43,371 bases of DNA from Acidobacteriota bacterium (lineage in GTDB: Bacteria > Acidobacteriota > Terriglobia > Bryobacterales > Bryobacteraceae): assembly GCA_016871015.1 (NCBI GenBank), contig VFZX01000021.1, forward strand, positions 1 through 43,371. The letters run 5' to 3'. A program made the position numbers and the translations under genes. Each line of letters begins with the position of its first letter. Position 1 is the stretch's first letter. Under the pieces are notes generated by a model. That model ran no database searches. It was given only the letters and a program-made list of their open reading frames with translations, and had not been told where the DNA came from. Shown one piece after another: positions 1,164 through 27,745 of the stretch.

Positions 1164-2022
1164 AATTCATCAGATGATCATAGCCGAGCTGCTCGACCGC
1201 CTTGCCGGCGAGCGTAACCCGTCCAGGCTTCCCCGCTTTGATGCGGCCGATCCTGGTCAGCGGCAACGTATCATGGCTCTCCGGGATGCGAGCCTGCGGA
1301 GAAGCGGTGAACAGCAGCTCGTAATCCTCGCCGCCGTGGAGCGCCACGTATTCCGACGCGCCTGGAAACACCGGTAGCTCCCCATCGATCTCCGCGGCGA
1401 CGCGCGACTCAACGCACAGCCGGTGCAAGTCGGTCGAGAGTCCGTCGCTCAAGTCCATGCAGGCGGACGCCTTGCCCCGGAGGAACCGGCCGAGTTTGAG
1501 GCGCGGAACGGGATGCACGTGCCGCTTCCACGCCTTGGTACCGGGTTCGTTCATTCCCTTTGCCGATCCGCCCAGCGTGCCGCTCACGTAGACCAGGTCG
1601 CCCGGCTTGGCGCCCGATCTTCTGAGCGCCTGGCCGCGCGGAACCGAACCCACAACCACGATGTCGCAACTGAACGTCATCGCATGCGCGGTGTCGCCGC
1701 CGAGCAGGGGCACGCCGAGCTCGCTCTGTCCGGCGTAGAACCCACGGATCCACACATTGTCCGTACTGTCCGAGGTTGCAATCGACACCAGGTACCCTCG
1801 AGGATCGCCGCCCATCGCCGCAATGTCGCTGATGGCACGGGCCAGCGCGCAGTATCCCACCTGCCTTGCCGTGTGCGTCTCGAAACGGAAATGCACATTC
1901 TCGATAAACTGATCCGTCGTGATCAATAAGTCGCAGTCCGGCGGCGGACGCAGGACTGCGCAGTCATCGCCCAGATCCACTCCGATGCGTTTCAACCGGG
2001 CAACCATCTGCAGCTCGGTCAC
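1156..2022 (-). CDS. thiL: Thiamine-monophosphate kinase
   Basis: ThiL phosphorylates thiamine monophosphate to the active cofactor thiamine diphosphate with ATP in the cytoplasm. Family motifs are in order: LGDDCAVL (17-24), TTDQF (35-39), SDIAAMGGDP (65-74), GGDTA (108-112), DLSDGLS (190-196) and HGGEDYELLF (229-238). These are the Mg/ATP and substrate acidic motifs of the PurM-like fold. At 288 residues it is shorter than the usual 310-330, the loss being in the C-terminal half, but no key motif is missing. The start is GTG at 2022, overlapping the Hsp70 stop as GTGA, so translation is probably coupled. Thiamine diphosphate is the cofactor of the E1 enzyme further along, though the two are not in one operon. 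Confidence 0.92.
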   Translation of the reverse strand: MTELQMVARLKRIGVDLGDDCAVLRPPPDCDLLITTDQFIENVHFRFETHTARQVGYCALARAISDIAAMGGDPRGYLVSIATSDSTDNVWIRGFYAGQSELGVPLLGGDTAHAMTFSCDIVVVGSVPRGQALRRSGAKPGDLVYVSGTLGGSAKGMNEPGTKAWKRHVHPVPRLKLGRFLRGKASACMDLSDGLSTDLHRLCVESRVAAEIDGELPVFPGASEYVALHGGEDYELLFTASPQARIPESHDTLPLTRIGRIKAGKPGRVTLAGKAVEQLGYDHLMNYG

Positions 2023-4658
2023 TCGATCACCAGGCCGCTTGGTAGCTCCTCGCCGAAAATCCGGCTGAGCGTCTCGGAATCGCGCGTTGATGCGCCCTCC
2101 AGCACCGGCAGCAGCCGTGCGGCGTCCTTGTGTTGCTCGATCACCCGGCGCGCCACCCCGATGGAGGCGGGTGGCAAGTCCCGGTAGGCATCGCCGGTCC
2201 GGCGTGCCAGCGCGGCCAGCGTCTCCGCCGCCGGCAGGACCTTGGCCAGCGCATCCACCCAGCGCGCCGCGGTGGCGGCGGGCAGCACCTGGTTCGAAGG
2301 TCCGTGGAACAGGTTACGCGCGCCCAGTCTTCCCAGGCACCACAATTCGCTCTCGCGAAAATCACCCGCGTGGATCCGTTTCACGAGCGCGTCGCCAAGC
2401 TCGGTACGGGTGTGCGCGGGCAGCAGTTCGAGCGAACAGGCGCAACGCCACATTTCACGCAAAAGGCTCGAGTTCACCCGCACCTTCTGGTTCTTCCGCG
2501 GCATGATGGAACCGGCGATCCGCTGGTAGATATCAGCCTGCTGGTTGCGGTTTAATCCGCCCGCCACGCGTCCCCAGAAAATCCACCACTCGCTCTCGTT
2601 CTGGACCGCGTTCGGGAACGCGATGCCGCTCGCGAACATGCGCCGCGCGATCTCGATCCGGTACTCATCGCCCGGGAATCCGAAGCCCGGACGCAAACAC
2701 AACCCGCAGAGGTTGAGCCATCGCGCTTCGAGTGCCGCGCCCCGCTTGCGGCTCTCCGCCAGCGACAGGAACAGATCCGCCATCCGCCGGATCGCCGATA
2801 GCGGCCAGGAATTGCGGCCGAGCGCAAGCGTCTGTTCAAGCCGCGCTGGCAGGGCTTCCGGTTCGATTGTGAACCGCTCGAACGTGTCGCGGATCAGCGA
2901 CTCCGCCGCAGTTAGCGCCTCATCCGGAATCACCGCGGCGGGACGCGCGGGCGCATCCGCGTTGGCCTGCTTACGCAGCTCGAACTGAAGCCTCCAACGG
3001 TGTTCGCTGATCTTGGACTCGGCCCAAAGCTCGAGCGTCCCGACTTCGGTCAGTTTCGCGCCGAGCCTCACCGGGACGGTCCGTTCACCCGGCTTGCCGA
3101 AGCGGATCACTGCATTGAGAGGAGCGTGCCGGTGCAGGACTCCCTCCTCGACATCGGACTTGGGAAAACTCACGAGGCTTCCGATCGGGTCGTCCAACCG
3201 CGTGAGCGAGCTGTAGAGCCGGAAGGTCACCGGCTTGTTAGCGACAAGCTGCAGGCCCTCCTGTTCGATATGGAGTGTCTCGCCTTCCTGCGTGCCCCGC
3301 GGCATGATGGTGACGGTGTTGAGCGCGCCGTCTTTGGAATCGAGCTCGACGTAGTAGGATCGCGGAAGCCCCCCACGGACCACCAGTCCCGCGCCCGTCG
3401 TGCGGACGTAGCTGTAGTAGGCCGCGCCCACGGCCACCGCCAGATCGAGGCCGCGATTTTCGAGGATCAGCGGCCGTTTGCCAAACCAGCTCTCGAGCAC
3501 GTCGGCCGTGCGGTTCCGCAAGAGATCGGGGATAAAGAAACCGCCGTTGAACAGCACCGCGTCAGGCACGGCGTTGCCTGAGTCCGCGAGGAACGCGGCG
3601 AGATGGCGGGTGATTGCCGGGTCGTTCTCGTAGGGCAGGCCGAGTTCGCCGAACGGGCTCATCTCCTCTCTCTGCGGCCGGTCCGTCGCGGCGCACGAAG
3701 ACAGGAATCCGTCGAGGGCCAGCTCGAGCGCTTCTTCCCGTGTGATCTCGGTACGCAGCGTCCCGCCGATGAGCGAGCGGCCAGCACCGAGGATGGTGAT
3801 GGGCACGCGGTCCACCGTGGCGTCGGCGAGCATCCGTTCCTTGGCCGCGGCGCACTGGCGGCGCAACGCGGTTTTTTGGCGGACGGAGAGCTGGGCGTTG
3901 AGTTTGGATTCGGCGAGCCACGACAGCGTCAGGTCCAGGTTGTCACCGCCGAGCAGCAAGTGGCGGCCGACCGCGGTGCGCGTGAAGTCGATCCGGTCGC
4001 CGTCGCGGTGGACCTTGATCAAAGTGAAATCGGAGGTCCCGCCTCCGACGTCGATGACCAGCACGATCTGGCCGTCGAACAGGTCCTTGCGCGACTGTGC
4101 CAGGTGATTCGCGATCCAGGAATAGAACGCGGCGGCCGGCTCTTCGAGCAGCGTCAGTTTGGCAACGCCCGCGGCCTGCGCGGCGGCGACGGTCAATTCG
4201 CGCGCCTCTTCGTCGAACGATGCCGGAACGGTGAGCACCACTTCGTTCCCGCCGAACGGCTCGTTCCCGGCACGCTCCCACGCCTCGCGCATCGCGGCGA
4301 TGTAAGCCGTCGACGCCTCCACGGGGCTGAACAGGCGCCCGCCCTCGCCGGCATCCCACGGCAGGATCTTCGCGGTCCGGTCCACTGCCGGATTCGACAG
4401 CCAGCTCTTCGCCGAATGGACCAGCCGTGTCGGTGTCAGCGCGCCTTGCTCGCGAGCGTGGACGCCCACTTGCGGCGTGTCCCCCGTCAACAGGAAAGAC
4501 GGCAGCGTGCGCCGCGCCTCGACGATCCCTTCCGCCACCGGCTGGGGGATGTCCAGCACATGGACGGGCGGAAACTCAGCGTCCTCGGTCTCCGAGGCGC
4601 GAATGTAGGCGAGCGCGGAGTTCGTGGTACCCAGGTCGATTCCGATGAAAGAGCGCAC
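2019..4658 (-). CDS. Hsp70-family ATPase with long non-canonical C-terminus
   Basis: The 879-residue protein has an actin-fold Hsp70 nucleotide-binding domain: phosphate-1 loop IGIDLGTTNS (5-14), phosphate-2 loop IDVGGGTSDF (202-211) and an adenosine-type NGGFF motif at about 370. The remainder is not the DnaK substrate-binding domain. It has a beta-rich stretch at about 420-560 and a helical region to the end, resembling the DUF3731-type Hsp70 relatives. It is therefore unlikely to be the housekeeping DnaK (about 640 residues). The start is GTG 4658, 6 nt after the DUF2760 stop, and the gene overlaps thiL. Pairing of DUF2760 with such Hsp70 proteins recurs in bacteria as far as I recall, suggesting a shared but uncharacterised chaperone function. 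Confidence 0.88.
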   Translation of the reverse strand: MRSFIGIDLGTTNSALAYIRASETEDAEFPPVHVLDIPQPVAEGIVEARRTLPSFLLTGDTPQVGVHAREQGALTPTRLVHSAKSWLSNPAVDRTAKILPWDAGEGGRLFSPVEASTAYIAAMREAWERAGNEPFGGNEVVLTVPASFDEEARELTVAAAQAAGVAKLTLLEEPAAAFYSWIANHLAQSRKDLFDGQIVLVIDVGGGTSDFTLIKVHRDGDRIDFTRTAVGRHLLLGGDNLDLTLSWLAESKLNAQLSVRQKTALRRQCAAAKERMLADATVDRVPITILGAGRSLIGGTLRTEITREEALELALDGFLSSCAATDRPQREEMSPFGELGLPYENDPAITRHLAAFLADSGNAVPDAVLFNGGFFIPDLLRNRTADVLESWFGKRPLILENRGLDLAVAVGAAYYSYVRTTGAGLVVRGGLPRSYYVELDSKDGALNTVTIMPRGTQEGETLHIEQEGLQLVANKPVTFRLYSSLTRLDDPIGSLVSFPKSDVEEGVLHRHAPLNAVIRFGKPGERTVPVRLGAKLTEVGTLELWAESKISEHRWRLQFELRKQANADAPARPAAVIPDEALTAAESLIRDTFERFTIEPEALPARLEQTLALGRNSWPLSAIRRMADLFLSLAESRKRGAALEARWLNLCGLCLRPGFGFPGDEYRIEIARRMFASGIAFPNAVQNESEWWIFWGRVAGGLNRNQQADIYQRIAGSIMPRKNQKVRVNSSLLREMWRCACSLELLPAHTRTELGDALVKRIHAGDFRESELWCLGRLGARNLFHGPSNQVLPAATAARWVDALAKVLPAAETLAALARRTGDAYRDLPPASIGVARRVIEQHKDAARLLPVLEGASTRDSETLSRIFGEELPSGLVIE

Positions 4659-5238: not shown

Positions 5239-5244
5239 TACAAT
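5239..5244 (+). promoter_or_regulatory. Putative -10 element (TACAAT) for adenylate kinase/PQQ dehydrogenase
   Basis: TACAAT is one mismatch from the sigma-70 -10 consensus, 16 nt before ATG 5261. No good -35 hexamer sits at the usual distance; the nearest, GTGACA at 5207-5212, is 26 nt away, too far. The complementary strand reads TTGTATCCT here and may serve the divergent DUF2760 operon. Confidence 0.35.
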
Positions 5245-5260
5245 GCAGGGGCTACGGTCC

Positions 5261-5851
5261 ATGGACAAGTTCATCATCATCGGCCCGCAAGGCGCCGGCA
5301 AAGGAACACAGGCCCAGCTCCTGTGCAGTGAATTCGACTTCGTGCATATCTCGATCGGGGATATTTTCCGGTGGCATATGCGACACCACACCAAGCTGGC
5401 GGCGCGCGTGACGCGCATCATGAATGAAGGCCGCCTGGTGCCCGACGAGATCGTCGAGGAGGTGGTGGGGAAGCGCCTCCAGGAGCACGACTGGAATTGG
5501 GGATTCGTGCTCGACGGCTTCCCGCGCACCCGCTCGCAAGCCGAGTACCTCTTCGAAAACTGGAATCTCGACCGCGCCGTCTACCTCGACATCCCTGACG
5601 ACGTGGTGTTCGACCGCGTGGCGATTCGCGCCGCTGTCGGTGAGGGCTCCGGATTCACCAAGCGCGCCGACGACAATCCGGCCGCGCTGCGTGTCCGCCT
5701 CGGCGAGTTTCACGGCAAGACCGCGCCGTTGCTGCAGCTTTTTCATGACAAGCACATGCTGGTGACGGTCGACGCCAACCGGCCCATCACCGAGGTCTAC
5801 GAGTCCATCAAGGAGGCCCTCGATCTGTGCGGGCCAAAGGGGGGCAAATGA
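5261..5851 (+). CDS. adk: Adenylate kinase (nucleoside monophosphate kinase)
   Basis: Adenylate kinase interconverts ATP + AMP and 2 ADP in the cytoplasm. The 196-residue protein has the P-loop GPQGAGKGT near residue 8, the AMP-binding Arg in the IFRWHM helix, DGFPRT (about 86-91), and a lid-side KRADDNPAALRVRL segment. The lid is short, without the zinc-type cysteines. ATG 5261 is chosen over ATG 5243 because AGGGG lies about 9 nt before it and the P-loop follows at the normal distance. Its stop overlaps the next gene as ATGA, an odd partner for an adenylate kinase. A housekeeping adk normally sits in the ribosomal-protein/secY cluster, so this may be a second copy; the symbol is by family only. 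Confidence 0.85.
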   Translation: MDKFIIIGPQGAGKGTQAQLLCSEFDFVHISIGDIFRWHMRHHTKLAARVTRIMNEGRLVPDEIVEEVVGKRLQEHDWNWGFVLDGFPRTRSQAEYLFENWNLDRAVYLDIPDDVVFDRVAIRAAVGEGSGFTKRADDNPAALRVRLGEFHGKTAPLLQLFHDKHMLVTVDANRPITEVYESIKEALDLCGPKGGK

Positions 5852-8139
5852 TGTCGCGAACGGGACTGTTGCTGGCATCGGCCGCCATCATGATGGCCCA
5901 GAACACCAGGCTGGTGCGCGACGGACGCCAGTTGTTCGTGAAGCAATGCTCGGCTTGCCATGGCGACAACGCTAAAGGCGGCCGCGGATCCGATCTCACG
6001 ACTGGCGAGTGGAAACACGGCGGCACCGATCAGGAGCTGACGCGAAACATCACGAAGGGAATTCCGGGAACGCAGATGCCTGCTGTCCCGTTGCCGGAGT
6101 ACGATGCACGGGCGATCATCGCGTTCCTGCGTTCTGTCTCGTCGGGTGGACCGGATGAGCAGGTCTCCGGTGACCCGGAACGCGGCAAGACGCTGTTCTT
6201 CGGCGCTGCGGGATGTTCCAAGTGCCACATGTACGCCGGGCACGGGGGAAGGCTCGGTCCTGATCTGACCCAGGCCCGGGCACGGTACAAGGTGGCGGAC
6301 CTGCGCAAATCGATTCAGGATCCTGGGGCGAGGATCGCCGCTGGATTCGAAACCGGCGTGGCGAAGCTGAGATCGGGACAGACGGTCCGCGGCGTGAAGC
6401 GCAACGACGACACGTTTTCCGTGCAGATGATGGACCCGTCGGAGAAGCTGCATCTGCTGATGACGCGGGACCTGGCGTCATTCGACAAGCCGTACGAGTC
6501 GATGATGCCTGCCTACACGGGCCCGGACCTCAATCACCTGCTCGCGTTCCTGTCGAAATTCGATCCTGGCACGATGCCGGTCCCGGAATGGAAGCCCGCG
6601 GCTGACTTCAACGTTTCCTACCGCCGGATCCTGAACGCGAAGGCTGAGCCGCACAACTGGCTCACCTACTGGGGCGACTTCCAGGGGCGCCACAACACCC
6701 CGCTCAGCCAGATCACGCCGGCCAACGTGTCCCAACTGAGAAGCGCCTGGGCGCTTCAATTTGGCGGCGGGACCAACGAAACCACGCCCATCGTGGTGGA
6801 CGGAGTGATGTTCGTCACGGGTCCGCTGAATGCCGCGGCGGCCCTTGATGCGCGCACCGGACGCCCGATCTGGCGGTACAACCGCAGGCTGCCAAGCGTC
6901 GCGAGCCACTGCACGGTGATGACGAACCGGGGCGTCGCGGTGCTGGGCGACCGCGTCTACATGGCCACGCTCGACACGCACCTGGTAGCGCTCGATGCCA
7001 AGACTGGCAACGTGATCTGGGATGTCGCGGTGGACGACTACACCAAGGGGTTTTCGATCACGCACGCGCCACTGGCGATCGACGGCAAGATCATTGTCGG
7101 CGTCACCTCGGGTGAATGCGCACTGTACGGGTGGGTGGATGCGTTCGATGCGGCCACCGGCAAGAAGCTGTGGCGCGTGCACGCGATCGCACAGGAAGGC
7201 GATCCGAACCGCGCGAGCTGGTCCGGCGACTCGGCGAAGTACGGCGGCTCACCGACCTGGACCACTGGCACCTATGATCCTGATACGGACACGATCTTCT
7301 GGGCGACCGGAAATCCGGGTCCGGACTACGATGGCACACCGCGCGATGGCGACAACCTGTACTCGTGCGCGGTTCTGGCGATCGATCCGAAGACCGGCCG
7401 GTTAAAGTGGTGGTTCCAGTATTTGCCCCACGATGTCCACGATTGGGATGGCAATCAGACGCCGATGCTCGTGGACGGCGTGATCCGCGGGCAGAAGCGT
7501 AAGCTGCTGGTGACGGCACAGCGGAACGCGTTCTACTACGTGCTCGACCGCGTCACCGGACAATTCATCAGTGGCAAGGCGTTCGCCAAACAGACTTGGG
7601 CGCGAGGCCTCGATGACAAGGGCCGGCCGATCGTGATTCCAAACACGGACCCGACGCCCGAGGGCAACTACGTGTGTCCGGACGCGGCGGGTGCGGCCAA
7701 CTGGGGCGCCCCGTCCTTTGACGCAGGACTGAATCTGTTCTTCGTCTCAGTGCGCGAGGCTTGTGCGACCTACATGCGCGTGACAAAGTCCCCGGTGCCG
7801 GGTGAAGGATACACGGGCGGCGGGCAGGAAATCGATCCGAAGGTCGGGACTCCGGGCGCAGTCCGGGCGCTGGAGGCGACGACGGGGACAGTGAAGTGGA
7901 ACTATCCGCTGCACACCGGATCCTCTGCCACCGGGGTGATTGCGACCGGTGGCGGTGTGGTTTTCGCGTCGTCGGCGGACGGCAACCTGATCGCGCTGGA
8001 GTCGCACACGGGAAGGTACCTGTGGCACTATCAGACCGGCGCCAACATCAAGAGCGGCCCGATCTCGTATGCGGTGGATGGCAGGCAGTACGTCGCTATC
8101 GCATCGGACGCGGCGTTGTTCACGTTCCGACTTCCGTAG
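5848..8139 (+). CDS. Diheme cytochrome c - PQQ-dependent alcohol dehydrogenase fusion
   Basis: A periplasmic quinoprotein that should oxidise an alcohol or sugar and pass electrons through its own hemes. A signal peptide (about residues 1-18) is followed by two c-type heme sites, CSACH at 34-38 and CSKCH at 123-127. An eight-bladed PQQ propeller fills about 265-763, with repeated AxDAxTG-x-xxW blade motifs. The active-site segment PHDVHDWDG places the catalytic Asp at 532 and a second Asp at 534. That extra Asp is the published marker of lanthanide-using enzymes (XoxF-like). No vicinal Cys-Cys pair is visible. Hemes lie N-terminal, the reverse of classic quinohemoprotein alcohol dehydrogenases. 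ATG 5848 overlaps the adenylate kinase stop with AAGGGGGG just upstream. Confidence 0.85.
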   Translation: MMSRTGLLLASAAIMMAQNTRLVRDGRQLFVKQCSACHGDNAKGGRGSDLTTGEWKHGGTDQELTRNITKGIPGTQMPAVPLPEYDARAIIAFLRSVSSGGPDEQVSGDPERGKTLFFGAAGCSKCHMYAGHGGRLGPDLTQARARYKVADLRKSIQDPGARIAAGFETGVAKLRSGQTVRGVKRNDDTFSVQMMDPSEKLHLLMTRDLASFDKPYESMMPAYTGPDLNHLLAFLSKFDPGTMPVPEWKPAADFNVSYRRILNAKAEPHNWLTYWGDFQGRHNTPLSQITPANVSQLRSAWALQFGGGTNETTPIVVDGVMFVTGPLNAAAALDARTGRPIWRYNRRLPSVASHCTVMTNRGVAVLGDRVYMATLDTHLVALDAKTGNVIWDVAVDDYTKGFSITHAPLAIDGKIIVGVTSGECALYGWVDAFDAATGKKLWRVHAIAQEGDPNRASWSGDSAKYGGSPTWTTGTYDPDTDTIFWATGNPGPDYDGTPRDGDNLYSCAVLAIDPKTGRLKWWFQYLPHDVHDWDGNQTPMLVDGVIRGQKRKLLVTAQRNAFYYVLDRVTGQFISGKAFAKQTWARGLDDKGRPIVIPNTDPTPEGNYVCPDAAGAANWGAPSFDAGLNLFFVSVREACATYMRVTKSPVPGEGYTGGGQEIDPKVGTPGAVRALEATTGTVKWNYPLHTGSSATGVIATGGGVVFASSADGNLIALESHTGRYLWHYQTGANIKSGPISYAVDGRQYVAIASDAALFTFRLP

Positions 8140-18225: not shown

Positions 18226-19181
18226 TGCGAAAGCCTCGAATTGCAGTGACAATGGGTGATCCGGCCGGAATCGGTCCGGAGGTGGTCGTGAAGGCGCTGG
18301 CCGATCCTGGTATTGCGGACCTGGCGGATTGGATCGTAGTGGGCGATGCAGTCGTCGCGAGGCGGGCCTCCTCACTCACCGGTCTCGACTTGCGCGCGGA
18401 ACTCAGCGGCCAAAGCCAGTTGAGTGATGAGAACGGCTTCGAGTTCGGCAAGCTCGATGCGGCCTGTGGGCGCGCCGGTCTGCACTACGTGAAATCGGCC
18501 ACGGAAATGTGCCTGCGGGGCGAAGCCGACGCAATGGTGACCGCGCCGCTGAACAAGGAAGCAGTGGCGCTCTCCGGCGTCCAGTTTTCCGGCCACACCG
18601 AGTACATCGCCGAGCTGTGCGGCAACTCGGACTCGCGGATGCTACTCGTCAGCGAACGCCTGCGGGTGGTCCACGTGTCCACCCACATCGCGCTGCGCCA
18701 GGCCTGCGAGCTGAAGACGGACCGGATTATCCGCACCATCGAGCTCGGTGATCAGGCGCTACGGCTCCTCGGGTTCAGCGCGCCGCGCATCGCGGTTTGC
18801 GGATTGAATCCCCACGCGGGCGAGCATGGACTGTTCGGCACGGAGGACGAAGAGGCGATCGTGCCGGCGATCCGTGCCGCACGCGCAATCGGAATTCATT
18901 GCGATGGTCCCCATGCCGGCGACACGGTGTTCCTGGCGGCGGTGAAGGGCCGCTACGACCTCGTGGTAGCGATGTATCACGACCAGGGCCACATTCCCAT
19001 GAAGCTGCTCGATTTCGACCGCGGTGTGAACGTATCCATCGGACTGCCGGTGATCCGGACTTCCGTTGATCACGGCACTGCGTTTGATATCGCCGGCAAG
19101 AATCAGGCGAATCCGGAAAGCATGATGTGCGCGCTGCGGCTGGGCGCTCAGATGGCTGCCGGGGCGTTGGCGAAGCAGTAG
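18222..19181 (+). CDS. PdxA2-type 4-phospho-acid dehydrogenase (4-hydroxythreonine-4-phosphate dehydrogenase family)
   Basis: The 319-residue protein shows the PdxA family motifs: TMGDPAGIGPEV (10-21), GHTEYIAEL, HVSTHIALRQA (a metal-binding His), GLNPHAGEHGLFG (metal-binding His region), AMYHDQGHIPMKLL and SVDHGTAFDIAGKNQANPES. The fold oxidises a 4-phosphorylated hydroxy acid with NAD and then decarboxylates it. Next to a DUF1537 kinase the characterised role is D-threonate 4-phosphate to dihydroxyacetone phosphate plus CO2, rather than vitamin B6 synthesis; this is inference from context. ATG 18222 overlaps the kinase stop as ATGA. The last 34 nt overlap the convergent propeller gene. Confidence 0.88.
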   Translation: MMRKPRIAVTMGDPAGIGPEVVVKALADPGIADLADWIVVGDAVVARRASSLTGLDLRAELSGQSQLSDENGFEFGKLDAACGRAGLHYVKSATEMCLRGEADAMVTAPLNKEAVALSGVQFSGHTEYIAELCGNSDSRMLLVSERLRVVHVSTHIALRQACELKTDRIIRTIELGDQALRLLGFSAPRIAVCGLNPHAGEHGLFGTEDEEAIVPAIRAARAIGIHCDGPHAGDTVFLAAVKGRYDLVVAMYHDQGHIPMKLLDFDRGVNVSIGLPVIRTSVDHGTAFDIAGKNQANPESMMCALRLGAQMAAGALAKQ

Positions 19182-20518
19182 AGCGACGATTGGGTGCGCA
19201 CGAAGATCCGCCCGTCCACGATGGCGGGCGTCGCGAACACTTCTTCGCCGAGCGGGTTCACCTGCACGATGCTCCACTGGCCTTCCGCTTTGACAACGGA
19301 CACCGTGCCGTCCTGGCTTACCAGCCAGATCTTGCCATCTGCGGCGACTGGTGATGCGAAGTACTTATCGATAGCCCCTTTGAGCCGGTCCTGCTTGATC
19401 ACGGCTCCCGTGGCGGGATCGAATGAGATCAGGATGCCGCTGTCGTTGACCATGAACAATACCTCGTTGTAGAGGACCGTCGAGGGCACCTGCGGCACTG
19501 GGCGCTGGTACTTCCACAAAACCTCGCGTGACGCCAGGTCCACCGCCAGCAGTCCGTTTTCCGCGGCGAGCATGGCACGCGCGATGGCCCATTCGGTCTC
19601 GTTCAACCGCCCGTCCTGGTTCGTGTCGAACGTGCCGAAGTAACCGGGACGCTCCACCCGCTCGTTCGGGATCTCGGCGGGCGATAGGCTCCCGTCGCGG
19701 TCGGCGTCGTTGGAGGCGAGTGCCTCGGCGAACGGCGGCAGCTTGATCTGCTGGCCTGGCTGATTCTCCGGGAAACCCCAGCCGTTGATGTACAGCTTGC
19801 CGTTGGCGATCGAAGGCACCGATTTCATCTCGCATGCGAGTCCCGGAATGGACCATAGCTTGCGGCCGTCGCCAGCGGCGTAGGCGCTGAGCTGGAATGA
19901 TTCCGCGATCAGGATCTGGCCCTGGTGCACCACAGGCGTCGAGTACCCGGAGATTACGCCCGGCCGTTGCGTGCGCCACGCCTGCTTGCCGGAGCGTGCG
20001 TCCACCGCCAGCAGGAACGACTCGGCGTCCTGGTCCACTGGCAGGATCACCTTGCCATCCACCAGCACCGGGGACGCGCCGAATCCGTAGTAGACCTTGA
20101 ACGGACCCAAAGGAAACCGCCACCGCTCCTTGCCGTTCCGGTCGTAGGAGAGCAGCCCGAAGTCCTGGAAGAAGACGAACACGTTATCCCGCTCGTCGGC
20201 CAGTGGACTGGGAGACGCCGGGTTGTTCGGCTTTCGCAACGGATTTCCAGTCCCCGCGTCCACCTCGCGGCGCCACAACAGCTTCCCGTCCTTGCGATTC
20301 AAACAAATCGTGGCGCGCTTGTCTTTTTCAAATCCTGTCACGTAGACCCGGTCGCGCGTGACCACCGGCGAAGAGTGGCCCGGCGGGACCGGAGCCTTCC
20401 AAACCACGTTGCGTCCGGGTCCGAACTCCACGGGAGGCGCCGCGCCGGTGGCGATCCCTTGCGAGTTGGGACCGCGGAACTGTGGCCACGTCAACAGAAG
20501 CGCGGCGAGCAGTGTCAT
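19148..20518 (-). CDS. Secreted PQQ-like beta-propeller protein with an inserted EF-hand pair
   Basis: The 456-residue protein begins with a short signal segment (MTLLAALLLT) and then WPQFRGPNSQGIA, the standard start of the outer-membrane-biogenesis/PQQ-like propellers common in Planctomycetes and Acidobacteria. Blade repeats (e.g. CLNRKDGKLLWRREVD, AVDARSGKQAWRTQRPG) follow. Between blades sit two canonical 12-residue calcium loops, 271-282 (DADRDGSLSPAE) and 298-309 (DTNQDGRLNETE). No catalytic Asp motif of true PQQ dehydrogenases is apparent, so it may be a structural or binding propeller. ATG 20518 overlaps the cupin stop as ATGA. The 3' end overlaps pdxA2 by 34 nt on the opposite strand. 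Confidence 0.85.
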   Translation of the reverse strand: MTLLAALLLTWPQFRGPNSQGIATGAAPPVEFGPGRNVVWKAPVPPGHSSPVVTRDRVYVTGFEKDKRATICLNRKDGKLLWRREVDAGTGNPLRKPNNPASPSPLADERDNVFVFFQDFGLLSYDRNGKERWRFPLGPFKVYYGFGASPVLVDGKVILPVDQDAESFLLAVDARSGKQAWRTQRPGVISGYSTPVVHQGQILIAESFQLSAYAAGDGRKLWSIPGLACEMKSVPSIANGKLYINGWGFPENQPGQQIKLPPFAEALASNDADRDGSLSPAEIPNERVERPGYFGTFDTNQDGRLNETEWAIARAMLAAENGLLAVDLASREVLWKYQRPVPQVPSTVLYNEVLFMVNDSGILISFDPATGAVIKQDRLKGAIDKYFASPVAADGKIWLVSQDGTVSVVKAEGQWSIVQVNPLGEEVFATPAIVDGRIFVRTQSSLYCFANAPAAI

Positions 20519-20895
20519 TTGAGTTCGATGCGGATCGAGTGCATTGCGGTCTTGCCAATGTTCTTCACTTCGTGGACAACTGGCTCGCTCCACACCACGG
20601 TGCCGAACTTGCGCACGGCCTTGTTCTTGGCGCCGCTCGGAAAGGTGGTCTGCTCGATTTCGTAGTCGGCCAGATACACCGTGACACCACGCGGATGCTT
20701 GTGCTTCCGCTCGATCTTCCCGGGCGGTACCTTCGCCGAGATCACGCGGACGATCGGGTTCTCAAGCAGCAGCGTATGCGTGTCGCCGGCCACCTTCAGC
20801 GGGTCGAGTTCTTCTTGTGAGGCGGCGGGAGTTCTCCACATCACCAGGCCGATAACGGCGAGGCATGCCAACGGAATCCATTTCTTGATGGCCAT
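20515..20895 (-). CDS. Small exported cupin-fold protein
   Basis: The 126-residue protein has an N-terminal hydrophobic export segment (about 6-20, WIPLACLAVIGLVMW) and a cupin-like barrel: VRVISAKVPPGKIERKHKHP, then VTVYLADYEI, and VVWSEPVVHEVKN. The KHKH pair (about 65-68) and a later His (VVHEV) could be metal ligands, which is inferred from cupin architecture. The Cys in the leader lacks a proper lipobox at -3. Function unknown; related proteins are annotated as cytoplasmic or secreted cupins. It is the first gene before the EF-hand propeller (ATGA overlap) and starts 16 nt downstream of the aminotransferase stop, so it may be co-transcribed with it. Confidence 0.72.
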   Translation of the reverse strand: MAIKKWIPLACLAVIGLVMWRTPAASQEELDPLKVAGDTHTLLLENPIVRVISAKVPPGKIERKHKHPRGVTVYLADYEIEQTTFPSGAKNKAVRKFGTVVWSEPVVHEVKNIGKTAMHSIRIELK

Positions 20896-22254: not shown

Positions 22255-24678
22255 ATGCGGCATTGGTGGATTGGACTGTGGGCCTGCGTGGCGTGCGCGC
22301 AGATCAAGCTTGTGGAGAACGGCGGGAGCCGCTACACGATTTGCACGGAGGACCCGGCCTCAGCCCACCAGCAGCGGGCCGCCGCTGAGCTGCAGCGCTT
22401 CGTGGCTCAGATGTCCGGGGCCAAGTTTCCGGTCTCCCCTTGTGCCGAATCAGCCACGCATCAGGTCCGGATCCGCGAGCGCGACGGACTGGGAGAAGCC
22501 TCCTCAATCGAGATCAGCGGCTCCGGACTCATCATTGAAGGCGGGCGTGACCGCGGCGTGCTCAACGGCGTCTATTCGCTCCTCGATCAACTTGGCTGCC
22601 GCTGGTTCACCCGTACCGTGAGCCACATACCAAACCGCCGGACGATCGTGATCCCGAAGACGCGCCAGCAATTCCGGCCCGCCTTCGAGTACCGCGACGT
22701 CTACTTCACCGAGGCACGGGATCCCGAATGGTCCGCGCGCAACCGGCTCAACGGACAGCACGTCATCTACCACCCGTTCGTCCATTCGTTTCCTGCAATC
22801 ATTCCGCATGAGCAGTACTTCGCGTCTCATCCTGAGTACTTCGCGCTTGTCGACGGCCAGCGCCGATGGGAGCGCGCGCAGATCTGCCTCACCAATCCCG
22901 ATGTGATGCGGATCGCGGTGGACCGCACCCGCCAATGGATCCGTGAGCGGCCCGATTCGAAGTTCGTGTCCATCTCGCAAAACGACTGGACCGGATACTG
23001 TGAGTGCGACCGTTGCCGGCGCGTTGAGGCCGAAGAGGGCGGGGCACACTCAGGTCCGCTGGTGCGTTTCGTCAACCACGTCGCCGAACAGATCGAGCGT
23101 GAGCATCCGGACAAGAAGATCGATACGCTGGCTTACTGGTACACCGAGCCGCCGCCCACCAAAACGCGTCCGCATAAGAATGTTTGGATCCGGTTCGCTC
23201 CCATCCGCGCCTGCCAGTCGCACCCGTATGAGAGCTGCCCCTACAACGCGCGCGTGACCGGCAACCTGCGCCGTTGGTCGGAGATCACCAACCGCATCTA
23301 CGTCTGGCACTATTCGACCAATTTCGAGCACTACCTGCTGCCGTTCCCCAACTTCAAGGAACTTGCCGCCGACGTACCGATGTACCGGCGCCACGGCGTT
23401 ACCGGGATCTTCATGCAGGGTAGTCCGGCGCCGGGTGGAGGAGGCGAGTTCGCGGAGCTGCGATCCTACGTGCTCGCGCGGCTCCTGTGGAACCCGGACG
23501 CCAACGTCGAAGCTGAGATCAACAGCTTCCTCGCGGCGGTGTTTGGAAGCGCCGCCAAGTCCGTCCGGGCTTACTTCGATCTCGTCCAGCGGCAGGGAAG
23601 GGCGAATCACCTCTGGGTGTACGATCCGGCGGACTCACCGTATGTGCACACCCGATTTCTCGATCAGGCCGATGCCATCTTGCGCCGCGCCGCATCACAG
23701 GCCGTCAGTCCTGAGATCCGCGAGCGCGTCGAACGCGTACGCCTCGGGATCGACTACGCAAAGCTGCGCCGCCGGCAACAGTTCTTCCTCGAAGGCGATT
23801 GGTTCCAACCCCGTGGACTCGACGCCCTCCGCACGGACTTCAACCGCTTCTTCGACCGCATCCGCGAACTCGGCATCGAACATGTCCGCGAAGGTGTTCC
23901 GCCGGAGATGGAGCGAGCGATGTTCGATCAAGGCACCCGCCCGTTCCGCACCGTAACGCTGTCGTCGGCGTCCACTCGCGCCATTGCAATTCCTGAATTG
24001 AACTCCCGCGTGATCGAACTCGGCGCCTACCGTGTGGGCATCGATCCCGGAAGCTGGCGGTACCCGGATCAAAGCGGAATCTGGCCGCAAGCACATGCAA
24101 GCGCGCACCACCGCGTACCCTACCAGTTCACGTGGGCCGATGTTGTAGACCGCGGTCCGGCAGGTGAAGTGGCGATCTCCGGGGCCTCCCCTGACGACCT
24201 CATCATCACGCGGAAGATGCGGCTCGATGGCGGCCGCCTGGAGACGGTCACCGAGGTCCACAATGTGGGTGAGACCTCGCGCCCCGTTACGATTCAGGCG
24301 ATCGCCGAGCTGCGGCTCGATCCCGGTGCGAACGGCGAACAACTGGCGCTCGCCTACCGCACCGTGTCTGGCACGCAAGTGGACCGCACGTTCTTCGAGC
24401 CCCGCGGGGAGACCGGACGAAGCGGATTCCTCCGCGGCGACAACCTGCCGGCGGGCGTGTGGCACGCGTACGGTCCAGCCGGCACACCGGGGATCGAGCA
24501 CTCGTTTGAAATCAACGAAGTCGACCGCTGTGACTGGGCGTGGACGCTACGCGGCGTCCCCACGCTTGCGATCTCGTGCTGGAGCAAGCCCGTCACACTG
24601 GAACCGGCCCGCCGTGTGATGCTTAAGTCCCACTATCGCGCGACGTCTGGGCGCGGAGGAAAGCCATCAGGTCGGTGA
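22255..24678 (+). CDS. Secreted DUF4838 domain-containing protein (alpha-glucuronidase-like architecture)
   Basis: The 807-residue protein starts with a signal peptide (MRHWWIGLWACVACAQ). Residues about 20-115 form a GH20/GH67-like N-terminal domain (HQQRAAAELQRFVAQMSG, RGVLNGVYSLLDQLGCRWF). DUF4838 follows (about 200-460: SISQNDWTGYCECDRC, LAYWYTEPPP, WHYSTNFEHYLLPFPNF). The C-terminal third is beta-rich. The layout is that of a polysaccharide-processing enzyme, but activity is not established for DUF4838. The CECDRC cluster (about 249-254) is conserved in the family and may bind metal or form a disulfide. The 3' end overlaps the convergent cytochrome gene by 56 nt. ATG 22255 is chosen over the preceding TTG. 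Confidence 0.82.
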   Translation: MRHWWIGLWACVACAQIKLVENGGSRYTICTEDPASAHQQRAAAELQRFVAQMSGAKFPVSPCAESATHQVRIRERDGLGEASSIEISGSGLIIEGGRDRGVLNGVYSLLDQLGCRWFTRTVSHIPNRRTIVIPKTRQQFRPAFEYRDVYFTEARDPEWSARNRLNGQHVIYHPFVHSFPAIIPHEQYFASHPEYFALVDGQRRWERAQICLTNPDVMRIAVDRTRQWIRERPDSKFVSISQNDWTGYCECDRCRRVEAEEGGAHSGPLVRFVNHVAEQIEREHPDKKIDTLAYWYTEPPPTKTRPHKNVWIRFAPIRACQSHPYESCPYNARVTGNLRRWSEITNRIYVWHYSTNFEHYLLPFPNFKELAADVPMYRRHGVTGIFMQGSPAPGGGGEFAELRSYVLARLLWNPDANVEAEINSFLAAVFGSAAKSVRAYFDLVQRQGRANHLWVYDPADSPYVHTRFLDQADAILRRAASQAVSPEIRERVERVRLGIDYAKLRRRQQFFLEGDWFQPRGLDALRTDFNRFFDRIRELGIEHVREGVPPEMERAMFDQGTRPFRTVTLSSASTRAIAIPELNSRVIELGAYRVGIDPGSWRYPDQSGIWPQAHASAHHRVPYQFTWADVVDRGPAGEVAISGASPDDLIITRKMRLDGGRLETVTEVHNVGETSRPVTIQAIAELRLDPGANGEQLALAYRTVSGTQVDRTFFEPRGETGRSGFLRGDNLPAGVWHAYGPAGTPGIEHSFEINEVDRCDWAWTLRGVPTLAISCWSKPVTLEPARRVMLKSHYRATSGRGGKPSGR

Positions 24679-27600
24679 GTTCCTGCTGCGACAGCACTTC
24701 ATCGAATCCTTCCGGCATCAGCGACACAGGAGCGAATCCCATCTTCTTCACGTCCTTGCGTGGAATGCGCACTTCGTCGTTCGGACCCGTGATCAGCAGC
24801 ACGTCGCCCGCGCCGCCACCACCGCGCTTTAGCAGTCCGGAATAGACTTCGCGCTCGGTCTCGACACGGTAGATCTCGTGTCCCGGCACGAAGCTCTCGC
24901 TTGGCAGCACGATCGCCTCCAGCAGGTCGTGCGGCGAGCGGATGGCGCCGATCGAGGTAAGATCCGGACCCACGTGCCCGCCCTCGATTCCGATCGTGTG
25001 GCAGCTCCCGCACCCCGCCTTGCTTCCAAAGAAGACGGTGCGCCCGCGGCCCACGTCACCCGCGGTCCGGAGCGTGTGCGAAAGTTTCGCCAATTTTTCG
25101 AGCCGTGATTTCTTCGCTTCCTCGATGCGCGCGATCAGCGGCTTGGCCTCCGCGCGGATCGATTCCGGGAGCTTCTTCACCAACTCCTCCACTCTCTGGC
25201 TGCTGACCGTGCCAAGAGACGATTCCACCGCGTTCAACGAAGCCAACAGCGCCCTGCCGGTCGCTTCATCGGTCGAAGCGCGGAACGCATCCAGGAGATT
25301 CGGCAGCACCAGCGGATCCGACTCTTTCAAATACTTGCTCGCCACGGCCAACTGCTGTTCCTTGCTGAACTCGGCGCGCGAAAGAATCTGCCCAGCGGCG
25401 AGCTTCGTGTTCGCCTCCGCTTTTGGCGCCACGCTCGCCATCAAGTAATCGAACGCCGGGCCGCTCAGCTTGGGATGCCGGTTCACCAGCGCCGACAGCG
25501 CGGCGATGCGGACCTCGTCCTTGCCGCTTGCATCCTCCGCCAACCGCCGCAACGGATCGTCCAGCGAATCCAAGCCCCGCGTCCGCGCCAGGCCGATCGC
25601 GGCCACGCGGACCTTCGGATCAGCGTGATCCAGCAGCCGCACCAGCCCCGCTGTCCAATCTTTCGGGAACTCCTTGGAGCTGCACTTCTCGGCGGCGCGG
25701 ATCAGGAAAACCTGCCGGTCCGCGTCCAGCGCCGGATCTCCCAACGCCTTGCCGATCGCGGCCTTCATGTTCGCATCAGGACAGAATGCGCCAATCGCGT
25801 CAGCGACAGAATCGGCCTCAGCCGCCGGGAACTGCGGCGAACGGAAGCGCGCCTCCAGCACCTGCGTGAGTCGCGCGCCCCACTGTGGACGCCGCGAAGC
25901 GACCCACAATGCCGTTTGGCGCAGGTCCCCGTCCTGCTCATGGAGGAAGGGAACCAACTGTTCCACCCGCAACGGACTCCCGTCCATTTGATCGAGCGCG
26001 ATCAGCGCCGCCTTGCGCACCGCCGGCTGCGCCGCTCCCAGTTTCGCCACCAACGGCGCGGACTGCTTCAGGTGGATCAACGAGTAGATCACCGAGTGCT
26101 CGACGAAGCGGTCCTCGGGATTCGCCGCAGCCTCGATGAGCGCAGGCACTGCCCGGGCATCGCCGATCATGCCAAGTGACGCCGCGGCCTGCCGCCTCAC
26201 GCCAGGTTCCTCTTTGCGCGCCATCTCCATCAGTGCTGGAACGGACTCGGAATCACGCGCCGTGCCGAGCTGCCGCGCCGCTGCCTGCCGCACCTCGGCG
26301 CGCGAGTCCTTCAGCGCCTCGCGCATTGCGGCCGTCGCCGCCGCGTTGCCCACGCGCGACAGTCCGTACACCGCGCCCGTGGCGCCTTCAACCGTCGTAG
26401 CGGATGCCCGTGCAGCCGCCAGCACCGGGACCGCGCTCTTCTCCGCCAGCTTGTCAAGCACTGCTTCGCGCACCGTCGGCCTGGGATCATCCAGGAGCTT
26501 GGCGAGCTTCTCCGGTTCCGCACTCAATTCTTGCTCGCTCCCGCGCGGGTTTGCGGTCTTCGGTGCGCCCTTGCGGCGCACGCGATAGAGCGCACCGTGG
26601 ATATCGGGCTTGGACACGCGCGACAACGGGCAGCCATGAATGAACCAGGCCCCAGTGTCGACTACGATGAGGCTCCCATCGGCGTCCTCCATCACGTCCG
26701 TGGGATGGAGGTCCGGATCCGACGACACGAAGAAATCGCTGTCCTCGGTCTTGTACGTCGCGCCGTTCCGCGAAACGATATGGCGCTGCACACGGTGTGA
26801 ATTGAACTGCGCCGAAAACAGGTTGCCCTGGAATCCGGAGCCGAACGCCGCTCCCTGATACCGCTCGAGCCCGGCCGGCGCGATCCGCGCGAACTTGGTC
26901 ATCACCGGCATCAGCGGACCAGTGCGCTTGAACTCCTCGGTCACCCCATTCGGCTTCGGATAGCACCCGCCCTCGACAAAATGCAGGATGGCGTCGCGTT
27001 GGCCATCCGCCGGATCCTGGAAATACGTCATCGTGCCGAACATGTCCCCGCCCGGAGTGAACACCACCTCCACAGGATTGTCGAAGCCGCCGCCCGCGTA
27101 CCACTCAAGCTCGGTGCCATCGGGCTTCAGCCGCCAGATGCGCGACGCCTTGCCTGCGTAGTGCTTGCCATCCTTCGTGTCGATGTTGAACCCGTGCCGG
27201 CCATCAGTCAGGTACAGCCAGCCATCCGGCCCCAAGATCGGTCCGTGTAGCGACGCCGCATTGGCCGACAGTTTCCATCCCGTGACAACGATGTCGCGCA
27301 CATCGGCGACCCCGTCGTTATTGGTGTCGGTGAACCGGTAGACATGCGGCGGCGCGGCCACATACAGCGACCCGCGGTACCACACTGCGCCCGCGGGCAG
27401 AGTCAGCTTGTCGGCGAACGTCGACGACTTGTCATAGACTCCGTCGCCGTCGGTGTCGGTGAGCATCGACACCACGTAGTTGGGGTCGGCGGACATTTCG
27501 GGAGTTTTCATCGTCTTGCCCGAGGACTCGCACATGAAGATCCGGCCCTGGTTGTCCACCGTGCCGAGCATCGGATACCGCACCAACCCCGGCTTCGCCG

Positions 27601-27745
27601 CGATCGACACTTCGAAGCCGTCGGGGACCTTGACCGATTCCAGTCCGCGGAGCGCGGGCGGAGCGCCGCCGCGGCCGCCGACGAATTGATAGACGCCAAA
27701 GCCAACGGCTCCTGCCGCTGCTGCGAGGATCAGCTTCTTGTTCAT
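24623..27745 (-). CDS. Large secreted dehydrogenase-like propeller with HEAT repeats and PVC-type cytochrome c domain
   Basis: The 1040-residue protein has an N-terminal export or anchor segment (about 4-20). A six-bladed glucose-dehydrogenase-like propeller spans about 35-370 (VPDGFEVSIAAKPGLVRYP, DGVADVRDIVVTGW, YQGAAFGSGFQGNLF). A long HEAT-repeat array runs about 405-880. At the end is a Pirellula/Verrucomicrobium-type heme domain with CGSCH at 912-916, HVGPDLTSIG and LLEAIVLPSESFVPGHE. This architecture (TIGR02604 plus TIGR02603) is thought to oxidise sugars outside the cytoplasm; the substrate is unknown. ATG 27745 has GAAGG upstream. It is divergent from the sulfatase (23 bp gap) and its end overlaps the DUF4838 gene. 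Confidence 0.87.
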   Translation of the reverse strand: MNKKLILAAAAGAVGFGVYQFVGGRGGAPPALRGLESVKVPDGFEVSIAAKPGLVRYPMLGTVDNQGRIFMCESSGKTMKTPEMSADPNYVVSMLTDTDGDGVYDKSSTFADKLTLPAGAVWYRGSLYVAAPPHVYRFTDTNNDGVADVRDIVVTGWKLSANAASLHGPILGPDGWLYLTDGRHGFNIDTKDGKHYAGKASRIWRLKPDGTELEWYAGGGFDNPVEVVFTPGGDMFGTMTYFQDPADGQRDAILHFVEGGCYPKPNGVTEEFKRTGPLMPVMTKFARIAPAGLERYQGAAFGSGFQGNLFSAQFNSHRVQRHIVSRNGATYKTEDSDFFVSSDPDLHPTDVMEDADGSLIVVDTGAWFIHGCPLSRVSKPDIHGALYRVRRKGAPKTANPRGSEQELSAEPEKLAKLLDDPRPTVREAVLDKLAEKSAVPVLAAARASATTVEGATGAVYGLSRVGNAAATAAMREALKDSRAEVRQAAARQLGTARDSESVPALMEMARKEEPGVRRQAAASLGMIGDARAVPALIEAAANPEDRFVEHSVIYSLIHLKQSAPLVAKLGAAQPAVRKAALIALDQMDGSPLRVEQLVPFLHEQDGDLRQTALWVASRRPQWGARLTQVLEARFRSPQFPAAEADSVADAIGAFCPDANMKAAIGKALGDPALDADRQVFLIRAAEKCSSKEFPKDWTAGLVRLLDHADPKVRVAAIGLARTRGLDSLDDPLRRLAEDASGKDEVRIAALSALVNRHPKLSGPAFDYLMASVAPKAEANTKLAAGQILSRAEFSKEQQLAVASKYLKESDPLVLPNLLDAFRASTDEATGRALLASLNAVESSLGTVSSQRVEELVKKLPESIRAEAKPLIARIEEAKKSRLEKLAKLSHTLRTAGDVGRGRTVFFGSKAGCGSCHTIGIEGGHVGPDLTSIGAIRSPHDLLEAIVLPSESFVPGHEIYRVETEREVYSGLLKRGGGGAGDVLLITGPNDEVRIPRKDVKKMGFAPVSLMPEGFDEVLSQQELTDLMAFLRAQTSRDSGT

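Follow-up and report, generated by a model that had tools for sequence, protein, structure and literature searches.

A PQQ-type dehydrogenase with a fused N-terminal diheme module and a probably lanthanide-capable metal site in a Bryobacteraceae genome

Introduction

Pyrroloquinoline quinone (PQQ) alcohol dehydrogenases (ADHs) include PedH of Pseudomonas putida KT2440, a lanthanide (Ln)-dependent PQQ ethanol dehydrogenase (6ZCV/6ZCW), the XoxF lanthanide methanol dehydrogenases (6DAM, 6OC5, 4MAE), which are not known to carry heme, and the type II quinohemoprotein ADHs (1KV9, 1YIQ, 1KB0), which carry one c heme on the same chain as the PQQ propeller. Here we describe a relative of these enzymes in which two heme sites precede the propeller. 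It is encoded at positions 5848..8139 (+) of a 43,371-nucleotide stretch of DNA (the window) that forms part of contig VFZX01000021.1 (assembly GCA_016871015.1) of an Acidobacteriota bacterium of the family Bryobacteraceae. The product is probably a periplasmic quinohemoprotein dehydrogenase, lanthanide-capable and using scavenged PQQ; its fold and metal site make it a variation on the PQQ-ADH type and not a new kind of enzyme. If this reading is correct, a bacterium seemingly lacking a cofactor-making gene would hold a quinohemoprotein that can use lanthanides and is wired by two hemes of its own.

Each described system shares part of this organization. PedH has the propeller fold, the Glu/Asn/Asp-x-Asp (D-x-D) site, the Gly before the Glu, and the pocket Trp and Arg, but it is 34–38% identical to our protein, keeps a vicinal Cys-Cys pair, has no fused diheme in the aligned chain and lies on a separate branch of the tree. 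The XoxF enzymes share the D-x-D and Gly-Glu site (fold Z 48.9–50.5) but group with MxaF, whereas the type II ADHs (fold Z 49.0–51.0) have a C-terminal heme domain, Thr instead of Asp at position +2 and a clade of their own. The NCBIfam group TIGR04528 shares D-x-D, Asn, Trp, Arg and nearby CxxCH motifs, and differs in that the equivalents of Glu310 and Glu422 are replaced. The diheme part resembles the diheme cytochrome c Kustd1711 (7ZS0), which, unlike it, is a stand-alone anammox protein, and whose hemes are given in a passage of its description as high-potential, near +350 mV (PMC11791136).

The initial annotation of this sequence contrasted the N-terminal hemes with known quinohemoproteins, which it took to carry theirs at the C-terminus. 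This rule is not general. Polyvinyl alcohol dehydrogenase may carry an N-terminal heme c. The fungal PQQ pyranose dehydrogenase CcPDH shares an N-terminal fusion of a cytochrome to a PQQ domain, and differs in its b-type heme, its AA12 family and its eukaryotic origin (PMC4332668). Among the matches listed in searches of the open-licence literature, none described an N-terminal diheme PQQ architecture.

Domain organization and predicted fold

The reading frame is unbroken (796 codons from stop to stop; stop codon 8137–8139) and encodes 763 residues if translation begins at ATG 5848, or 762 if at ATG 5851; residues are numbered throughout in the 762-residue protein. Consistently with the initial annotation, both CxxCH motifs and the heme-domain profile matches lie ahead of the PQQ-type beta-propeller (residues 254–762; 6610..8136, +), which was recognized by PF01011 (1.5e-78) and by superposition on PedH (6zcw). 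A putative signal peptide, M(M)SRTGLLLASAAIMMA (5848..5898, +), was recognized by inspection of the sequence, and the model has a predicted local distance difference test score (pLDDT) of 64–76 here.

Cytochrome c domain 1 (residues 22–96; 5914..6138, +; PF00034/PF13442) contains the motif 33-CSACH-37 (5947–5961, +) and, as candidate axial ligand, Met76 (6076–6078, +), invariant in ten aligned sequences (our protein and nine orthologs); the Pfam Cytochrom_C match in the N-terminal part reached 2.4e-15. Domain 2 (residues 107–236; 6169..6558, +), into which beta strands are inserted, was delimited from the TIGR02603 profile, the model and Kustd1711, and holds 122-CSKCH-126 (6214–6228, +) and the candidate axial ligand Met219 (6505–6507, +), nearly invariant in the same ten sequences. 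All ten matched the TIGR02603 heme-binding domain, our protein at 7.4e-19 and 68.1 bits against a curated cut-off of 68.15, and the inserted strands lie inside the span of this model. Since the nine orthologs (58–81% identity) all retain both CxxCH and Met76 as well as the residues for catalysis and metal ligation, the motif set is not a chance occurrence.

An AlphaFold2 model of the whole protein, built from an alignment of 47 rows, had a pLDDT of 90.2 and a predicted template modelling score (pTM) of 0.89. Its top solved structure was PedH 6zcw (Z 51.9, 507 residues, 1.6 A), also the best match by sequence, followed by 1kv9 (Z 51.0, tied with PedH), 6dam (50.5) and 1yiq (50.4); ranks 1–27 were all quinoprotein dehydrogenases (Z 51.9–44.5), and the following row scored 38.0. 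The structural check proposed for the metal site was thereby answered in part, at the level of the overall superposition on PedH.

Modelled alone, the diheme part had a pLDDT of 91.4 and a pTM of 0.75. Its closest fold was Kustd1711 (7zs0; Z 16.6, 195 residues, root-mean-square deviation 4.9, so that domain packing or inserts differ), and the second heme domain also matched Kustd1711 by sequence profile (7.9e-26). Cytochrome cL was considered as nearest kin of heme domain 1 and rejected, its Z of 11.1 being unspecific beside cytochromes c6 (11.9) and a cbb3 subunit (13.0).

The metal and cofactor pocket

Pocket positions were read from an alignment to ten solved PQQ alcohol dehydrogenases; their roles are those we take from MxaF numbering, and six of the references, 1kv9 included, are presumed to be Ca enzymes. 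The metal-ligand positions are occupied by Glu422 (7114..7116, +) and Asn488 (7312..7314, +), the cofactor-stacking position, presumably, by Trp470 (7258..7260, +) and the active-site Arg position by Arg558 (7522..7524, +). The motif PHDVHDWDG is present as first annotated and supplies Asp531-Trp532-Asp533 (7441..7449, +), that is, the catalytic base position and the lanthanide-type extra Asp (Asp532 and Asp534 when counted from 5848). The residue preceding the Glu is Gly421, and Gly stands there in all four Ln references (PedH and three XoxFs), in contrast to Ala or Asp in the six Ca references. Of 13 positions counted across the 17 rows of the ortholog clade (16 distinct sequences), only Glu310 varies, being Gln in one row, and the other 12 are constant; Glu422, Asn488, Trp470, Arg558, Asp531 and Asp533 are the same in all 17.

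Phylogenetic position and family membership

The placement in a PQQ-ADH phylogeny that the initial annotation had proposed was obtained from a quick IQ-TREE run with support from the SH-like approximate likelihood-ratio test (SH-aLRT) only. Its 86 rows comprised our protein, 10 references (without Gcd), 51 of 80 named loci (L056–L075 being absent, and L050 and L092 identical), 18 of 19 other ADH-type paralogs of the host (L036 omitted) and 6 of 9 further orthologs. The named loci were the best 80 of 578, picked by the patterns HD[VT]HDWD and [KQ]GI[PA]GTQM, so that their D-x-D is partly present by construction; the host paralogs and the other relatives' orthologs were not picked by pattern. 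Three groups had support 100, namely XoxF with MxaF, PedH with ExaA, and the type II enzymes, and our protein fell outside all of them. The 76 family rows formed one clade with no reference inside (SH-aLRT 97), and within it our protein belonged to a clade of 17 rows, every one fused to hemes (support 100).

The 17 named ortholog loci (55–68% identity) all bear Acidobacteria-lineage titles. Among the best 80 of 578, seven of these 17 are titled Bryobacterales or Bryobacter and one Sulfopaludibacter, and the wider family also occurs in metagenome-assembled genomes titled Gammaproteobacteria, Gemmatimonadetes, Verrucomicrobia, Alphaproteobacteria and Acidimicrobiia. The host genome itself (8.66 Mb, 720 contigs, completeness 99.74%) has 118 PQQ_2 matches in total, and the gene belongs to a set of 20 high-scoring ADH-type paralogs in it. 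For four further host proteins (L037, L041, L042 and L044), E. coli Gcd was the nearest among the references.

By propeller superposition and by its Glu, Asn, Asp, Trp and Arg, the protein has features of a PQQ alcohol dehydrogenase. We left it unassigned to XoxF, PedH, type II ADH, TIGR03075 or TIGR04528, because for each of these a defining feature was tested and found lacking: it lies outside the XoxF and PedH/ExaA clades, has no C-terminal cytochrome c domain, both CxxCH being N-terminal, and scores 472.1 bits against the cut-off of 480.05 for TIGR03075 (PQQ dehydrogenase, methanol/ethanol family). The latter model matched all ten aligned sequences, and the best of them (1.9e-162) should, by E-value, pass the cut-off. 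TIGR04528 is taken up below.

Proposed function and alternative explanations

In the function that we favour, the protein would be exported to the periplasm, where the propeller would bind PQQ above a metal ligated by Glu422, Asn488, Asp531 and Asp533, with Asp531 as the base. Having the additional Asp533 and a residue as small as Gly421, the site would suit a lanthanide, Ca being also possible. The substrate oxidized may be of the alcohol or sugar type, and electrons would pass from reduced PQQ through the two N-terminal c hemes to the respiratory chain. PQQ would be obtained by scavenging, the host apparently lacking pqqC. Besides the retained pocket and the PedH match, the invariant CxxCH motifs and Met76, the frequent pairing with a diheme module described below, and the resemblance of the second heme domain to the high-potential cytochrome Kustd1711 speak for this proposal.

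Several observations weigh against this proposal. The vicinal Cys-Cys pair, which we take to have a role beside the cofactor, is present in all ten aligned references and lost here: Cys354-Thr355 (6910..6915, +) stands in its place, Cys-Thr is found in 17 of 17 rows of the ortholog clade, and Cys-Cys in 25 of the 76 family rows. Ser420 replaces a Gly of the GGE/GAE stretch, Gln557 stands for the Asp that precedes the Arg in the MxaF, XoxF and PedH/ExaA rows, and Ala693 occupies the place of MxaF Trp476. The predicted fold alone cannot pick Ln over Ca, because the type II enzyme 1kv9 ties with PedH. None of the host-genome proteins compared had XoxF as nearest reference, and the best NCBIfam score of our protein was to TIGR04528, named 'acido-empty-quinoprotein group A' (501.8 bits, cut-off 650).

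The supply of PQQ weighs on the same side. No pqqC match was found in the host genome, in a search that covered pqqC and pqqE among the pqq genes, nor in any of the ten genomes holding the ortholog (host and nine relatives; one, G001, is only 77% complete). The profile was silent in all 14 controls, and it found pqqC over the cut-off in 4 of 41 genomes, in a set including the host, and in 10 of 199 genomes of the phylum, which shows that the search works. The difference between 0 of 10 ortholog genomes and 4 of 31 others means little. In favour of our proposal, the four pqqC-encoding genomes, of the same order, carry relatives of the enzyme. For the importer PqqU, the E. coli query gave ten weak partial matches in the host (best 4.4e-11, residues 29–186) and no ortholog, in a search that included no positive-control genome. 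Nine host matches to pqqE lay below the cut-off, as did matches in all 14 controls, and were not taken as pqqE.

With neither pqqC nor a PqqU-like importer found, the site would either depend on scavenged PQQ or function in some other way. Scavenging is plausible: an import study describes PQQ import without synthesis as widespread in bacteria and, in its part on Acidobacteria, places PqqU only in Vicinamibacteria, its authors suggesting that other members may synthesize PQQ or obtain enough by diffusion from soil (PMC12124388). In the counts given by a granite study, 16 of 38 XoxF-bearing genomes were capable of PQQ synthesis (PMC10875860).

The alternative that survives best, unlikely as we consider it, is the same enzyme depending on Ca (or Mg), with D-x-D tolerated and no lanthanide required. 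It bears directly on the claim of the initial annotation that the second Asp discriminates Ln-dependent enzymes, which proved insufficient on its own. E. coli Gcd contains HDLWDMD and thus D-x-D, and a survey states that m-GDH accepts Ca, Mg, Zn and Sr, yet its authors predict facultative Ln dependence for that enzyme and read Ln binding directly from the presence of D-x-D; their marine data attribute very many Ln-PQQ dehydrogenases to Acidobacteria genomes, called by D-x-D itself (PMC11996626). D-x-D is moreover invariant in all 76 family rows (51 of them partly motif-picked) whatever the rest of the site, the Glu position being Asp in 12 and Gly in 2. Members that have lost the Glu ligand keep it too, a further point against our proposal, and it says little about this protein. 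Thus D-x-D alone does not prove lanthanide use, and dependence cannot be called from a motif present in every family row, even Glu-less ones. The claim of a lanthanide-type enzyme rests instead on the whole site: the combination of Gly-Glu with D-x-D, alongside the retained Asn, Trp and Arg and the top match to PedH, is the PedH/XoxF pattern and is absent from the six aligned Ca enzymes, while Gcd is distant, with Asn and Val at its Glu and Asn positions. On this evidence the lanthanide part of the annotation stands as probable, with the fold tie set against it.

Rather improbable, in our estimate, is an 'empty' quinoprotein that binds no PQQ, the propeller having another role or cofactor and the diheme unit doing the redox work. 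The name of TIGR04528 suggests it (by name only; we found no open-licence literature using the term 'empty quinoprotein'), as do the lost Cys pair and the absence of any pqqC match above the cut-off from 37 of 41 genomes, host included. TIGR04528 matches exceed the cut-off in 19 of 61 genomes of the order, and none did among the 20 of 89 host candidates scored. In the 15 members examined (L170–L184), D-x-D, Asn, Trp and Arg are kept, Lys, Arg or Ser stands in for Glu310, and Asp (9), Ser (4), His (1) or Val (1) for Glu422; the upstream 1 kb, summed over three frames, holds at least two CxxCH in 14 and one in the remaining gene. Our protein, however, scores well below the cut-off and retains both Glu310 and Glu422, a combination found in none of the 15. 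Its catalytic residues are invariant within the ortholog clade, pqqC is present in four of the 41 genomes, and import without synthesis is common in bacteria in the account cited above (PMC12124388).

More speculative still, and improbable in our view, is an uncoupling of the D-x-D pocket from PQQ in bacteria that seem to be PQQ auxotrophs. The family would bind some metal, lanthanide or not, would work without a cofactor or with one other than PQQ, and would pass electrons via the diheme module. Something other than PQQ chemistry would then account for the conservation of D-x-D, and the family might, with equally little likelihood, be graded from an intact pocket, as in our gene, to a Glu-less one, as in TIGR04528. 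The family offers in any case a natural series (pocket intact, Cys pair lost, Glu lost) for comparing PQQ use and metal choice.

Fused and adjacent diheme modules

The initial annotation regarded the N-terminal hemes as a distinct architecture. The fusion is real; the module is nevertheless a common partner of the host paralogs, fused here and encoded by a neighbouring gene elsewhere. Among the 20 best-scoring host genes (L017–L036), the diheme is fused in 6 and lies in an adjacent open reading frame (ORF) in 10 (16 of 20 either way). Two of the 20 have a single fused heme. The last two, on contig C30, lie on either side of an ORF that is weakly similar to the diheme (28%) and has one CxxCH; the L036 frame itself also contains one CxxCH. 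The 80 named loci comprised 25 fused and 48 with an adjacent two-CxxCH frame (73 of 80 together). The remaining seven were L142, which ends at a contig end, L132, which starts at the locus start, and L123, L127, L131, L133 and L161, which have one CxxCH in the counted stretch and show diheme similarity by tblastn.

On the tree, scoring as split any ORF with no CxxCH in its first 300 residues and counting changes of state irrespective of direction, the fused label requires 7 changes and the split label 8, and the well-supported branches alone force the same number. This repeated switching, at least 7–8 times, together with the locus counts, indicates that diheme unit and propeller form one pair, which occurs either as an N-terminal fusion or as neighbouring genes, whichever state may have come first. 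The host gene L019 (C63:6159–8435) stands between the two, its diheme and propeller lying in one frame separated by a single TAG. We dismiss an assembly or annotation artefact, for although many relatives carry two separate genes, some separated by one in-frame stop, the fusion is found in all 17 ortholog-clade rows (16 distinct sequences), rows from other assemblies among them, and in one open frame here.

At another quinoprotein–diheme pair in the host (C73:7499–9768), the adjoining C73:6746–7156, on the same strand, weakly matches the TonB receptor PqqU of E. coli (8.9e-4).

Gene surroundings

The start of the gene and the stop codon that ends an adenylate kinase ORF (5243–5851) overlap in the sequence ATGA. 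Nine proteins of window ORFs around the gene, adenylate kinase included, had no tblastn match (E ≤1e-8) in the 17 named ortholog loci (flanks up to 5 kb); gene neighbourhood was therefore dropped as a clue to substrate, and no operon function was inferred. Elsewhere in the window, 2019–4658 (-) encodes an HSP70-like protein with DUF3731, and 19148–20593 (-) a second beta-propeller protein, of PQQ_2/BamB type. A protein with DUF7133 and HEAT repeats is encoded at 24623–27745 (-), and a stretch near its C-terminus (24872–25147) is similar, at 35% identity, to a portion of the diheme domain.

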